From the NCBI GenBank assembly GCA_016771945.1, contig QZLF01000004.1, positions 62,001 to 126,000 on the forward strand: a stretch of DNA of 64,000 nucleotides, in the 5' to 3' direction. Shown here one piece after another: positions 34,446-38,113 of the stretch. The stretch comes from Candidatus Leucobacter sulfamidivorax. GTDB taxonomy: Bacteria; Actinomycetota; Actinomycetes; Actinomycetales; Microbacteriaceae. The position numbers and the translations under genes were made by a program. Positions within the stretch are counted from its first letter, which is position 1. Each line of letters starts with the position of its first letter. Under the pieces are notes generated by a model that saw only the letters and a program-made list of their open reading frames with translations, was not told the origin of the DNA and searched no databases.

Positions 34446-35128
34446 ACGGGGCAGAGCCGAGCGAGGGCGCAGCGGCGCCGCGCCCGGTGCCGAGCCCGCC
34501 GAAGCACCCGCTGACCCAGCCGATCCCGGTCGTGGCCGGCGACCGCGAGGCGAAGCCGGCGAGAGCCAAACGCCGACGGCCGCGCCGCCGCCGGCGCGGC
34601 ATGCCGCCGCGGGCCGTCGTGCTCGTGGGCCCCATGGCTGCGGGGAAGACCAGCCTCGGGCGCAATCTGGCCAAGGAGCTCGGCGTGCCCTTCGTCGACA
34701 CGGACGCGGTGTTCGTGCGCGCCCACGGCACCATCACCGATTTCTTCGCGAGCCGGGGCGAGGAGGAGTTCCGCCTCATCGAGGAGCGGATCATCGCAGA
34801 GGAGCTCGCGCGGCCGGGCACTCGCATCGTCGCGCTCGGCGGCGGCGCGGTGCTGAGCGCGCGCACCCGCGAGCTGCTGAGCGCCCACCCCGTGGTGCTG
34901 CTCATGACGACGCAGGAGGCCGTGCTGCGCACCGCGAACCTCGCGCGGCGCCCCCTGCTGCGCGACGACCCCGACGCATGGGGCCGCATCCTCGAAGCCC
35001 GTCGGCCCCTCTACGAGGAGGTCGCCGACATCACCTTCCGCACCGACCGCGCGAGCAAGGAGCAGCTCACTCGCCGCATCGCCGAATGGGTGCGGTCGGC
35101 CGGACGCAGGTACAAGGAGATGACATGA
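34442..35128 (+). CDS. aroK: Shikimate kinase with basic N-terminal extension
   Basis: 228 residues, about 55 longer than the usual enzyme at the N-terminus. The kinase begins [31 protein letters not shown] (P-loop GPMAAGKT) and contains the GGGAV shikimate site and RRPLL lid. The extension is Pro-rich then strongly basic ([17 protein letters not shown]). An internal ATG just before PPRAVVL (near 34601) could give a standard-length protein. GTG 34442 overlaps the aroC stop, favouring the long form. Confidence 0.9.
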
Positions 35129-36207
35129 ACGACGCCCCCACGCGGATCCGGGTCACCGGCGACGCCGCGAGCACCATCACGGTGGGCCGGGACCTCCTCG
35201 GCTCGGTGGCCGGGGCGCTCGGCGAGCGCGTGAACCAGGTGCTCATCGTGCACACCTCCACCGTGGGGCGCCTCGCCGAGCAGCTGCGCGCCGAGCTGCA
35301 GCAGCACTACTCGCAGGTGCTGCTCGCCGAGGTGCCCGACGCCGAGGCCGCCAAGCGCGTCGAGGTGGCGGCGTTCTGCTGGCAGATCATGGGGCAGGCC
35401 GACTTCACCCGCAGCGACGCGGTCGTCGGCCTGGGCGGGGGAGCGGTGACTGACCTCGCGGGCTTCGTCGCGGCCACCTGGCTGCGCGGCGTGCGGCTCG
35501 TGCAGATCCCGACCACCGTGCTCGGCATGGTCGACGCCGCGGTCGGCGGCAAGACCGGCATCAACACCGCCGAGGGCAAGAACCTCGTCGGCAGCTTCTA
35601 CGCGCCGCAGGAGGTGGTCTGCGACATAGACCTGCTCGCGACGCTGCCGAGGAACGAGATCCTCGCCGGCTTCGCCGAGGTCGCGAAGTACGGCTTCATC
35701 GCCGAGCCCGAGATCCTCGAGACCATCGAGCGCGACGTCGACACGGCCACCGACCCGGCCTCGCCCGAGTTCCGCCGACTCGTCGAGCTCTCGATCGGGG
35801 TGAAGGCCCGGGTCGTGAGCGAGGACTTCCGCGAGGGCGGGCTGCGCGAGATCCTGAACTACGGGCACACCCTCGGCCACGCCATCGAGCACGCCGAGCG
35901 CTACCAGTGGCGGCACGGCGTCGCGATCTCGATCGGCATGATGTACGCGGCCGAGCTCGGGCGCATGGCGGGGCAGCTCTCCGACGCGGCCGTGGAACGG
36001 CATCGCTCCGTGCTGGGCTCCCTCGGGCTGCCGCTGTCGTACCCCGCGGGGCGCTGGCCGGGGCTGCTCGCGACCATGCAGCGCGACAAGAAGGCCCGCG
36101 CCGGCATGCTGCGCTTCATCGTGCTCGACGACATCGCGAAGCCGCGCGTGCTCGCCGGGGTCGACGAGAGCGTGCTCCAGTTCGCCTATCAGGAAATTGC
36201 AGCTTGA
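35125..36207 (+). CDS. aroB: 3-dehydroquinate synthase
   Basis: 360 residues. NAD-binding GLGGGAVTDLAGFVAATWLRGV, the PTTVLGMVDAAVGGKTGIN loop, EVAKYGFI and the metal ligands in LNYGHTLGHAIEHAERYQWRHGVAI are present. It makes 3-dehydroquinate, the first ring of the shikimate route. It overlaps aroK by 4 bases. The last 11 codons exist a second time 100 bases downstream (36275-36307) with different synonymous codons; the functional copy uses A/T-ending codons unusual for this genome. Confidence 0.95.
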   Translation: MNDAPTRIRVTGDAASTITVGRDLLGSVAGALGERVNQVLIVHTSTVGRLAEQLRAELQQHYSQVLLAEVPDAEAAKRVEVAAFCWQIMGQADFTRSDAVVGLGGGAVTDLAGFVAATWLRGVRLVQIPTTVLGMVDAAVGGKTGINTAEGKNLVGSFYAPQEVVCDIDLLATLPRNEILAGFAEVAKYGFIAEPEILETIERDVDTATDPASPEFRRLVELSIGVKARVVSEDFREGGLREILNYGHTLGHAIEHAERYQWRHGVAISIGMMYAAELGRMAGQLSDAAVERHRSVLGSLGLPLSYPAGRWPGLLATMQRDKKARAGMLRFIVLDDIAKPRVLAGVDESVLQFAYQEIAA

Positions 36208-36307
36208 CCTGATGCCCGAGACGGGCATCAGCGCTGGCGTCGCGGCAAGGCCCAGAAATGGGCCTTGCTCCAAGCTCCAGCGCGCCTACCAGGAGATCGC
36301 GAGCTGA
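36175..36307 (+). repeat. Recoded duplication of the aroB 3' end around a two-hairpin insert
   Basis: The left copy (36175-36207) encodes LQFAYQEIAA-stop and the right copy (36275-36307) LQRAYQEIAS-stop, offset by exactly 100 bases. The shared residues differ almost only at third codon positions, with A/T in the left copy and G/C in the right. Between them are two perfect hairpins: TGATGCCCG-AGA-CGGGCATCA (36210-36230) and GCAAGGCCCA-GAAA-TGGGCCTTGC (36245-36268). The insert has no frame of its own. The hairpins may serve as a terminator between convergent genes; the duplication suggests insertion of a small element. Confidence 0.75.
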
Positions 36308-36636
36308 AGCCTCCTGCGCGCCGGGGACTCGCCCGTCACTGCGACATCGACAGCGGCCTCGGGCACGAGCAGCTCGCCGAGGCGGACGGAGCCGAGGGCC
36401 GGCAGCGCGCGGCGCAGCGCGTCGAGCGAGCGGACGAGCGCGACGGCCCCGGGAGCGCCGGCCCAGGGCGGGGCGCCCGCCGCGGTGCTCGCCGCCGCCT
36501 CGATCCGCGCGAGGATCCGGTGCTCTTCCTCGCTCCGGCTGTCATCATCGGCGAGCCAGTCCAATAGCTCGGCAAGGGTCCAATCGGGGTCTATTGGCCC
36601 GAAAAGAGGCCAATTCGGGAAATTTATATCGCTCAT
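36286..36636 (-). CDS. Small uncharacterised protein
   Basis: 116 residues from ATG 36636. The N-terminal region is acidic and aromatic (FPNWPLFGPIDPDWTLAELLDWLADDD). The middle is helical, and the end reads RRRLQLAISW. I recognise no family. It is divergent from the MocR gene with 19 bases between the starts. Its last codons lie in the displaced aroB 3' end, so before that insertion it overlapped aroB convergently by about 22 bases. Confidence 0.55.
   Translation of the reverse strand: MSDINFPNWPLFGPIDPDWTLAELLDWLADDDSRSEEEHRILARIEAAASTAAGAPPWAGAPGAVALVRSLDALRRALPALGSVRLGELLVPEAAVDVAVTGESPARRRLQLAISW
36593..36614. promoter_or_regulatory. Inverted repeat near the MocR start, possible operator
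   Basis: ATTGGCC - 8 bases - GGCCAAT, a perfect 7-bp inverted repeat 42 bases before the MocR ATG. Further ATTGG/CCAAT copies lie close by (about 36560, 36580, 36635 and 36676). MocR regulators bind repeated half-sites near their own promoter, so this is a candidate autoregulatory operator. It also falls inside the first codons of the small divergent gene. Confidence 0.4.
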
Positions 36637-36655
36637 TGGTCCAGAATTGCGGAGT

Positions 36656-38113
36656 ATGGAGCTGTCTGAAAGAGCCAATCACCGGCTGGTGGATCGAGGA
36701 TCGGACTCGGTCTCCGCGGACCGTCTCAGCGAGCGCCTCGGGCGCTGGTCCCAGGGCGAGGGCACGCTGGCCGACCGCCTCGCGCGCGCCGTCGCCGCGC
36801 TGATCAGCCGCGGCGAGCTGCGGCCGGGGGACCGCCTGCCCGCCGAGCGCACCCTGGCCGCGGCGATCTCGGTGTCACGGGGCTCCGTGGTGGCGGCCTA
36901 CGGCATCCTGGCCGACGACGGTCTCGTCGAACGGCGGCAGGGGAGCGGCACCAGGATCGCGGGCGCTGCGCTGCGCCTCGGCACCACCGGTGGCGCCGGT
37001 CGCGGCGAGGCGCTGTTCTCGGCGTCGCCCTCGTCGATCGACCTCCTCCGCAGCGTGCCGCGGATCCCCGAGCTCGCGGTGGAGATCGTCCGCGAGCACG
37101 CGCCGGCCCTCGACCCGCTGCTGCTGTCCGAGACCGACCCCGTCGGCCTGCCCATGCTGCGCGCGCGCATCGCCGCGCGGTTCGCCGCGGAGGGCACCCC
37201 CACGACCCCGGAGCAGATCATCGTCACGCACGGTGCGCAGGCTGCGCTGCACCTCGCCGTGGGCGAGCTCGTGAGCCCCGGCGACGTCGTGCTGACCGAG
37301 GAGGTGACCTGGCCCGGCCTCTTCGATGCGGTGCGGAGGAGGGGCGGGCGCGTGCACGGCCTGCCGATGGGGCCAGACGGTCTCGACATGGCGGCGCTGG
37401 AGGATGCCATCGCGCTGCTGCGCCCCGCGCTCGTCGCGGTCAACCCGCACCACCAGAACCCGACCGGCACGCGCATGCCCGCGGCGGCGCGCCTGCGGCT
37501 GGCGGAGCTCGCCGCGGAGTACGGGGTGCCGGTGCTCGAGGACCGCGTGCTGGCGCCGATCGCCTTCGACGGCGTCGTGCAGCCGTCGCTCGCCGCGCTG
37601 CGTCCGGACGCGCCCGTGCTCGTCGCCGAATCGGTCTCGAAGTGGGCCTGGGCGGGGCTCCGGGTCGGCTGGCTGCGCGCCGACCCGGTGCTCGTGCGCC
37701 GAATGCGCGCCAGCCGGCAGACGGTCGACCTCTTCACGAGCGTCCCGGCGCAGCTGCTCGCCCTCGACTTCCTGGATCGCGCCGAGCCGCTCCGGAAGCA
37801 GGTCATCGAGACGCACGCCGCTAGGCTGGAACTGCTGCGCGGCTGGCTCGCCGAGCACCTGCCCGACTGGGAGTACGCGACCCCGCGCGGCGGGCTGTCG
37901 CTCTGGGCGCGGCTTCCCGAGGGGTCGGCCGACGCGTTCATCCGGCTCGCGGCGAGCCGCGGCGTGGCCGTGGCGGGCAGCCGCGCGTTCTCCGTCTCCG
38001 CCTCAGAGGACGACAGGATCCGCATCCCCTTCACCGCGCCCGACGAGCTGCTGCACGAGGCGGTGGTGCGCCTCGGCGAGGCGTGGCGCGAGAGGCGCCT
38101 CACCACACGCTGA
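36656..38113 (+). CDS. MocR-type GntR regulator with aminotransferase domain
   Basis: 485 residues. The winged helix (ARAVAALISRGELRPGDRLPAERTLAAAISVSRGSVVAAYGILADDGLVERRQGSGT) is followed by a fold-type I PLP domain. NPHHQNPTGTRMP, the schiff-base Lys329 in SVSKWAWAGLRVGW and the closing Arg-binding region are visible. MocR proteins sense PLP or amino-compound derivatives and usually control adjacent genes; the partner here could be the divergent small gene. Confidence 0.92.
   Translation: MELSERANHRLVDRGSDSVSADRLSERLGRWSQGEGTLADRLARAVAALISRGELRPGDRLPAERTLAAAISVSRGSVVAAYGILADDGLVERRQGSGTRIAGAALRLGTTGGAGRGEALFSASPSSIDLLRSVPRIPELAVEIVREHAPALDPLLLSETDPVGLPMLRARIAARFAAEGTPTTPEQIIVTHGAQAALHLAVGELVSPGDVVLTEEVTWPGLFDAVRRRGGRVHGLPMGPDGLDMAALEDAIALLRPALVAVNPHHQNPTGTRMPAAARLRLAELAAEYGVPVLEDRVLAPIAFDGVVQPSLAALRPDAPVLVAESVSKWAWAGLRVGWLRADPVLVRRMRASRQTVDLFTSVPAQLLALDFLDRAEPLRKQVIETHAARLELLRGWLAEHLPDWEYATPRGGLSLWARLPEGSADAFIRLAASRGVAVAGSRAFSVSASEDDRIRIPFTAPDELLHEAVVRLGEAWRERRLTTR

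Follow-up and report, generated by a model that had tools for sequence, protein, structure and literature searches.

The 78 bp between two copies of the aroB 3′ end in the window (the whole 64,000-nt stretch of DNA analysed here) are one copy of an apparently undescribed family of ~78 bp elements with two hairpins and three helices in Microbacteriaceae; a literature search returned no description of such a two-hairpin element family. We consider it highly likely that the insert is a non-autonomous mobile element of this Microbacteriaceae-wide family, characterized by unusually long target duplications. Mobility itself we infer from dispersal, the same core in unrelated genes, a covarying structure, the flanking duplications, and recurrence at the same sites. 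A preliminary description of this locus had read the insert either as the scar of a larger integrative element or as a miniature element in its own right; covariation, dispersal, and covariance-model matches in family genomes bear out the second.

The two ends of aroB

The aroB gene, encoding 3-dehydroquinate synthase, is complete on the forward strand at 35125..36207 (Pfam DHQ_synthase, 2.9e-44; DHQS_C, 4.8e-41). It stops inside the target copy in use, T1 (36186..36207, forward strand; 22 nt), which the repeat and codon comparison identify as a recoded gene end; the gene thus retains a working end, as the preliminary description stated. The displaced copy T2 (36286..36307, forward strand), with codons like those of relatives, represents the ancestral aroB end and is separated from T1 by 78 bp. 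The observation that the aroB end is present twice, exactly 100 bp apart, holds: a direct repeat (36174-36200 and 36274-36300) shows a spacing of exactly 100 bp and 81% identity. The preliminary description had placed the duplicated stretch at 36175-36207 and 36275-36307. The repeat is present, but the duplicated target is 22 nt and not 33, since GCTCCAGCGCGC at 36274-36285 is the element's 3′ end in most other copies. At unrelated targets, too, most copies of the aroB-insert subfamily end in GCTCCAGCGCGC; this end of the element is similar to the aroB codons CTC CAG, and the direct repeat therefore looks longer than it is. Judged by DNA alone, the aroB duplication is 19/30 identical, against a control maximum of 20 and below our threshold of at least 22/30, and at 22 nt it is shorter than all 31 duplications that pass this threshold. 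We accept it because the two copies share a peptide and T2 resembles relatives' aroB ends (21/22 positions match that of G071).

We compared the aroB loci of 28 relatives (30 loci fetched, less the window and L197, which the motif missed). All 28 are without this insert, and the right-hand copy carries the ancestral codons; we did not find the reverse arrangement, with left-hand codons ancestral, that the preliminary description had named as evidence against itself. Five of the last six codons of the used end terminate in A or T, compared with 11 of 360 in aroB, whose GC3 is 0.969 over 360 codons, a switch to A/T endings that had been correctly noted from the outset. Among 311 ten-codon windows taken from codon 41 onward, only the last contains five A/T-ending codons; one window has four and one has three. 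At the positions of the used GAA, ATT, and TAT, relatives have GAG (27/28), ATC (27/28), and TAC (22/28). None of the 28 has the complete codon set of the used copy, with single codons appearing in six (TAT), one (GAA), one (ATT), and two (GCA), and the codons of T2 are those common among relatives. Unusual codons begin with CTC at 36175 (codon 351), which 0/28 relatives use. Counting against an unusual last window, its score for codon sharing with relatives (0.381) is only the fourth lowest, behind the windows at codons 99-101.

Recoding of the used copy as a general rule is contradicted by the 34 gene-end copies, aroB included, that a rough ORF rule assigns: their last 12 codons have a mean GC3 of 0.836, and the gene bodies one of 0.839. 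Mean GC3 for codons 20-60 from the end is 0.885, and the drop from there to 0.836 is small and stands without a control set. Strong recoding is confined to aroB and a few others, with aroB among the few clear outliers. At L212, an rlmC-like gene in the window's own genome, the target copies differ at several mostly synonymous sites with mixed polarity; both this gene and rlmH of G010 have two diverged copies, each protein-like. The aroB recoding could reflect either arrival of T1 from a donor of another species or selection against re-insertion at an intact T1 site.

On the reverse strand, a convergent ORF (36286..36678) has its final codons within T2. It had no match in our Pfam search; a homologue in G075 aligns with it over 89 aa (52%), and one in G064 over 99 aa (37%). 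The frame of the G064 homologue extends into the aroB end, and in G075 the aligned part stops ~0.9 kb from aroB. The proposal that insertion parted aroB from an overlapping convergent gene fits the one relative G064, making a former overlap plausible. Selection on the convergent gene, encoded partly in T2, may help hold T2 unchanged. As read from the sequence, the two frames face each other wobble to wobble, so most silent changes would be silent in both and the constraint on T2 would be weak.

Other repeats also lie near aroB in relatives. In G009 (G009:C1:2095555-2095626) and G033 (L044:1501-1659), oppositely oriented elements sit at the aroB stop codon, two of them in tandem in G033, with the aroB end in the T2 position and an outer stem seemingly built with the aroB end itself. 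A different palindrome, GCGCAAT(N)6ATTGCGCG, occurs shortly after the aroB stop in G003, G006, G024, G036, and G072 (L209, L202, L195, L199, and L181, respectively). The inverted repeat with CGAAACGACCCCGA units found 3′ of aroB in G015 and G070 (L201 and L206) is apparently unrelated to the two-hairpin family.

Fold and distribution of the element family

The element spans 36208..36285 on the forward strand (78 bp), ends in GCTCCAGCGCGC, and scores 90.4 bits with covariance model R1, which was built from eight copies including the aroB copy itself; its boundary is taken from the duplications of other copies. All structural features lie on the forward strand. Hairpin 1 (36210..36230), with a GAGAC-type loop and a variable stem, is identified by folding, loop scan, and covariation, and hairpin 2 (36244..36269), with a GAAA tetraloop, by inverted repeat, folding, and covariation. 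Around hairpin 2, folding and covariation define an outer stem S/S′ (36231..36283) that pairs GCGCTGG at 36231-36237 with CCAGCGC at 36277-36283. The preliminary description had recorded two perfect hairpins and nothing else between the copies. The two perfect inverted repeats are there, with 10-nt arms (36209-36231 and 36245-36268), but folding adds a third stem enclosing hairpin 2 (36231-36240 with 36274-36283). Of the checks suggested in that description, folding gave the insert an MFE of -53.3 kcal/mol (z -6.4), with 0/200 shuffles as low, and a covariance-model search recovered the family. Across nine loci and both strands, Rfam models gave no match at E≤1, that is, no known structured RNA family.

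In an alignment of 84 matches, which is fitted to the structure and contains a few antisense matches of palindromic copies, 90.5% of cells pair and 26 of 27 pairs show two-sided changes (367 such cells). None of 500 shuffles reaches any of these measures, and sliding the pair partners by 1-3 columns lowers pairing to 32-45%. The GRGAC and GAAA loops are conserved, and the stem sequences, S/S′ above all, vary between subfamilies. A U-G pair at columns 54-119 is common (47/63 cells), which hints at RNA. In one subfamily (L103, L116, L124, and L146), the C that follows GCGCTGG is replaced by G and, linked to this, CCAGCG by CCACCG; L134 has the first change only. In antisense insertions at the FKBP end (L037 and L045) and the guaA end (L041, L046, and L089; assigned by Pfam for L041 and by flank similarity for L046 and L089), S′ seems to be native gene-end sequence and S its inverted copy, the stem apparently having been fitted to the target.

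Hairpin 1 as a generic host terminator is disfavoured, as the window holds one GAGAC and no GGGAC hairpin with a stem of at least 7. At the same stem length, the 64-kb window contains one GAGAC-loop and one GAAA-loop hairpin, both in the aroB insert. Across 26 young copies, the 30-nt segment at +40 past the element has a mean folding energy of -8.6 kcal/mol, and the segment at +160 folds at least as well. An ordinary tandem duplication that later drifted, its terminator hairpins having formed in place, is almost certainly wrong as an account of the insert. The spacing of the aroB copies, at exactly 100 bp, speaks for it, but we found no terminator-like site with a T run between 36000 and 36700, and the interposed core recurs at unrelated genes, a dispersal that refutes this reading; the preliminary description had likewise argued that it fits poorly.

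A BLAST search against the window's own genome found a second copy of the core within the 5′ portion of a gene for chorismate mutase, and same-genus genomes contain six further good copies. At E≤0.01, R1 matches 20 of the 54 genomes from the same genus. Of the 199 genomes sampled from the family it matches 66, which belong to 39 of 85 genera; about two of the 199 are expected by chance, and some positives are single weak matches. The richest carrier genomes have at least 23 R1 matches among the matches scored. A broader model, R2, again matches 20/54 same-genus genomes at E≤0.001. In 396 sampled phylum genomes (E≤0.0001, 12 candidates per genome), R2 matches the window's own genome alone, a weak negative because only those 12 candidates were scored and the five other family members in this sample were also without a match. 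The copies analysed below are mostly the stronger R1 matches together with those of the window's genome, rather than a random sample.

Target-primed reverse transcription typically leaves duplications that are long and vary in length. We nevertheless regard as very unlikely both a retroelement using this route and a REP-type element mobilised by a RAYT (Y1) transposase, the latter suggested by the hairpin form and by a CGTC motif like that of the CGTC-REPs (PMC3733652). Y1_Tnp is present in 1/199 family genomes, not the window's own. RVT_1 is present in 35/199 and was not found in the element-rich genomes G085, G124, G150, G200, G204, G226, G247, and G256; it occurs together with the element in G087, G149, G159, G196, G201, and G224. 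Overall, the distribution of Y1_Tnp and RVT_1 makes RAYT and reverse transcriptase a poor fit as mobilisers.

Target sites and target duplications

Target genes include aroB, rlmH (SPOUT_MTase), guaA, gcvP, FKBP, RidA-like, aconitase, IclR-type, and acyl-CoA dehydrogenase genes, an SRP54-domain gene read as ftsY, and a phosphoribosyltransferase gene read as hpt; copies also adjoin or lie in the ends of tRNA-Ala, -Gly, and -Thr genes. A rough ORF rule places 34 of 119 distinct copies at gene ends and 36 at gene starts, with 49 assigned to neither. The duplication spans the gene boundary, so the gene beside T1 retains an intact end; an insertion deep inside a gene would presumably be lost and so go unseen. 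At the pheS start of G226 (L091:7541-7570), and possibly at the chorismate mutase start of the window's genome (L002:1528-1557), the 3′ half of the element gives an in-frame ATG and about nine codons (MAFAPSSSA / MGLAPSSST).

For each of 120 distinct copies, we sought the first 30 nt past the element in the upstream sequence, at a threshold of at least 22/30 identical. A flanking direct duplication is present in 31 of the 120 and in 0/373 mismatched controls; the other 89, the aroB copy included, have none at this threshold. Counting back from hairpin 1, the upstream copy begins at a distance of 29-60 nt in 25/31 and of 64-100 nt in 6/31 (median 45). When the eight duplications at tandem loci (L096, L225, L229, and L044) or, for two of them, in repetitive coding sequence (L130 and L102) are set aside, it starts 35-58 nt before hairpin 1 in 19/23. 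The 89 copies without a duplication, the six distant starts, and these eight duplications count against a mobile element. The element's 3′ end meets the start of the duplicated stretch within about six nt, the second copy lying upstream of hairpin 1. The target copy is preceded by C in only 18/31, and there is thus no clear target motif. In young copies the target copies are near identical (30/30 in L029, L221, and L217), and the copy thus usually derives from the target itself. The duplication test and the distance measurement covered 120 copies each, with L025 excluded for its short flank; identical copies were removed first, leaving 119 for gene position, 118-119 for flank folding, and 121 for site recurrence. 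In L026, L224, and L056, the displaced target copy bears a single hairpin resembling hairpin 1 but no other part of the element, and L096:3001-3313 holds a tandem array of four copies spaced ~81 bp apart.

These positions bear on the other proposal of the preliminary description. guaA, rlmH, and tRNA genes are integration sites of elements that use tyrosine or serine recombinases, and direct repeats at gene ends, including the tRNA-Gly end, would suit a scar or attL/attR remnant of a larger element of that kind. We consider this highly improbable, and it has found no support so far. The same 78-bp core is common to unrelated target genes, and second target copies, where visible, are nearby: in 120 copies, searched over 1-3 kb upstream for most (89 nt for L025), the convincing ones lie within ~110 nt of hairpin 1, and the far matches of L143 (15.4), L124 (15.0), and L098 (14.2) are only slightly above the highest control value, 14.0. 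Moreover, a search of 50,697 phage and 72,556 plasmid records with the element copy of G085 gave no match, and an exact 38-base core pattern has none in viral contigs. Carriage by phage, plasmid, or virus is disfavoured by these tests of one copy and one exact core pattern.

At several sites, the elements of different genomes sit at exactly the same nucleotide: rlmH (G009, G010, and G029), guaA (G063, G023, and G212), FKBP (G017 and G031), PIG-L (G075 and G064), and the tRNA-Gly end (G075 and G025). Occupancy agrees within about four nt at a RidA-like gene (G075, G068, and G025) and at the L029/L053 gene (G068 and G010). For L029/L053 and L218/L228, the target copies agree within a genome (29-30/30) and differ between genomes (20-22/30), pointing to separate insertions at one site or to homogenisation of the two copies. 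This comparison covered those two pairs and, within genomes, L217 and L221; L038, L225, L229, and L006/L040 were left out. Persistence at one site across genera could also mean that these are old structures, kept because useful.

That different species carry the element at a shared position of a conserved gene would also be expected of a homing element. On this reading a nuclease supplied in trans, possibly guided by RNA, would cut the uninterrupted gene at a single conserved site, and repair would bring in the element along with T1, the recoded gene end of the donor. The displaced native end T2 would remain behind the structured RNA in the manner of a guide, and recoding would make T1 immune. 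Such an element would fit the foreign codon use of T1 and relative-like T2 at aroB, the paired protein-like copies at L212 and in G010 rlmH, and the abutment of the element's 3′ end on T2. We judge it unlikely: recoding is not general across the 34 gene-end copies, and young copies have identical T1 and T2, an identity that a self-targeting guide would not tolerate. Similarly doubtful is a cut-and-rescue version, in which a gene-less 78-nt structured RNA and an enzyme in trans target one conserved housekeeping-gene site, the insertion carries a recoded, protein-preserving gene end with which the gene stays functional and is protected from further cutting, and each lineage homes to its own gene across species. 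The earlier idea that the element brought its own version of the gene end is accordingly possible at aroB, but is not the rule, as the 30/30 identity of young copies attests.

Proposed mechanism and relation to known systems

For the non-autonomous mobile element that we favour, a single strand of ~78 nt can form hairpin 1, with its GRGAC loop, and after it a long stem with interruptions that has the GAAA hairpin at its tip. A postulated enzyme acting in trans would recognise this folded strand, as RNA or single-stranded DNA, and would open the target with a stagger of ~45 nt, fill-in of which would yield the duplication. With the cut in the last or first codons, the duplication restores the end of the gene, so that insertion does almost no harm. 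T1 would keep an intact target site, so that re-insertion is possible (tandem copies exist) and protein-sparing changes in T1 would be favoured; such changes, or a T1 arriving with the element from another species, might produce the recoded aroB end. We found no gene-bearing or autonomous version in the loci examined, which cover 1-3 kb upstream for most of the 120 copies.

With this family, the Microbacteriaceae would gain a strongly structured miniature element that occurs across the family. It illustrates a route by which a parasite can enter essential genes without harm, by duplicating enough of the target to restore the gene end. Recurrence at one site across species, long duplications, and a missing enzyme together pose a testable question about the mechanism of insertion.

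Like MITEs, the elements are small, non-coding, dispersed, and flanked by direct repeats. MITE target duplications usually measure a few bp, whereas those found here are some tens of nt (an identical stretch of at least 22/30 nt), and hairpin 1 lies outside the inverted repeat S/S′. The loci examined contain no related insertion sequence or coding version for the S/S′ inverted repeats. Double-hairpin elements and GC clusters of fungal mitochondria consist of adjacent G+C-rich hairpins, are thought to be mobile, and lie near gene ends; they are organellar.

The CGTC-tagged REPs are single hairpins of 20-40 bp, with stems of 8-9 bp and a tag at one end, and the main text of their report lists five phyla, Actinobacteria not among them, and does not use the word "duplication" (PMC3733652). 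The present elements resemble them as small, dispersed palindromic repeats, also intragenic and without a dedicated transposase, and in having CGTC before the hairpin in the commonest subfamily; they differ in their 78-bp length, their two hairpins and enclosing stem, and their long flanking duplications (PMC3733652). The terminal GTAG or CGTC tag of REPs and REPINs was not found here, CGTC being internal and absent from several subfamilies. Rickettsia palindromic elements (RPE), as presented in PMC10969869, are in-frame inserts of ~150 bp fused into the protein. Both they and the elements described here are small palindromic elements in coding regions that leave the protein intact; unlike the in-frame fusion of RPE (PMC10969869), the insertion at aroB duplicates the gene end and restores it.
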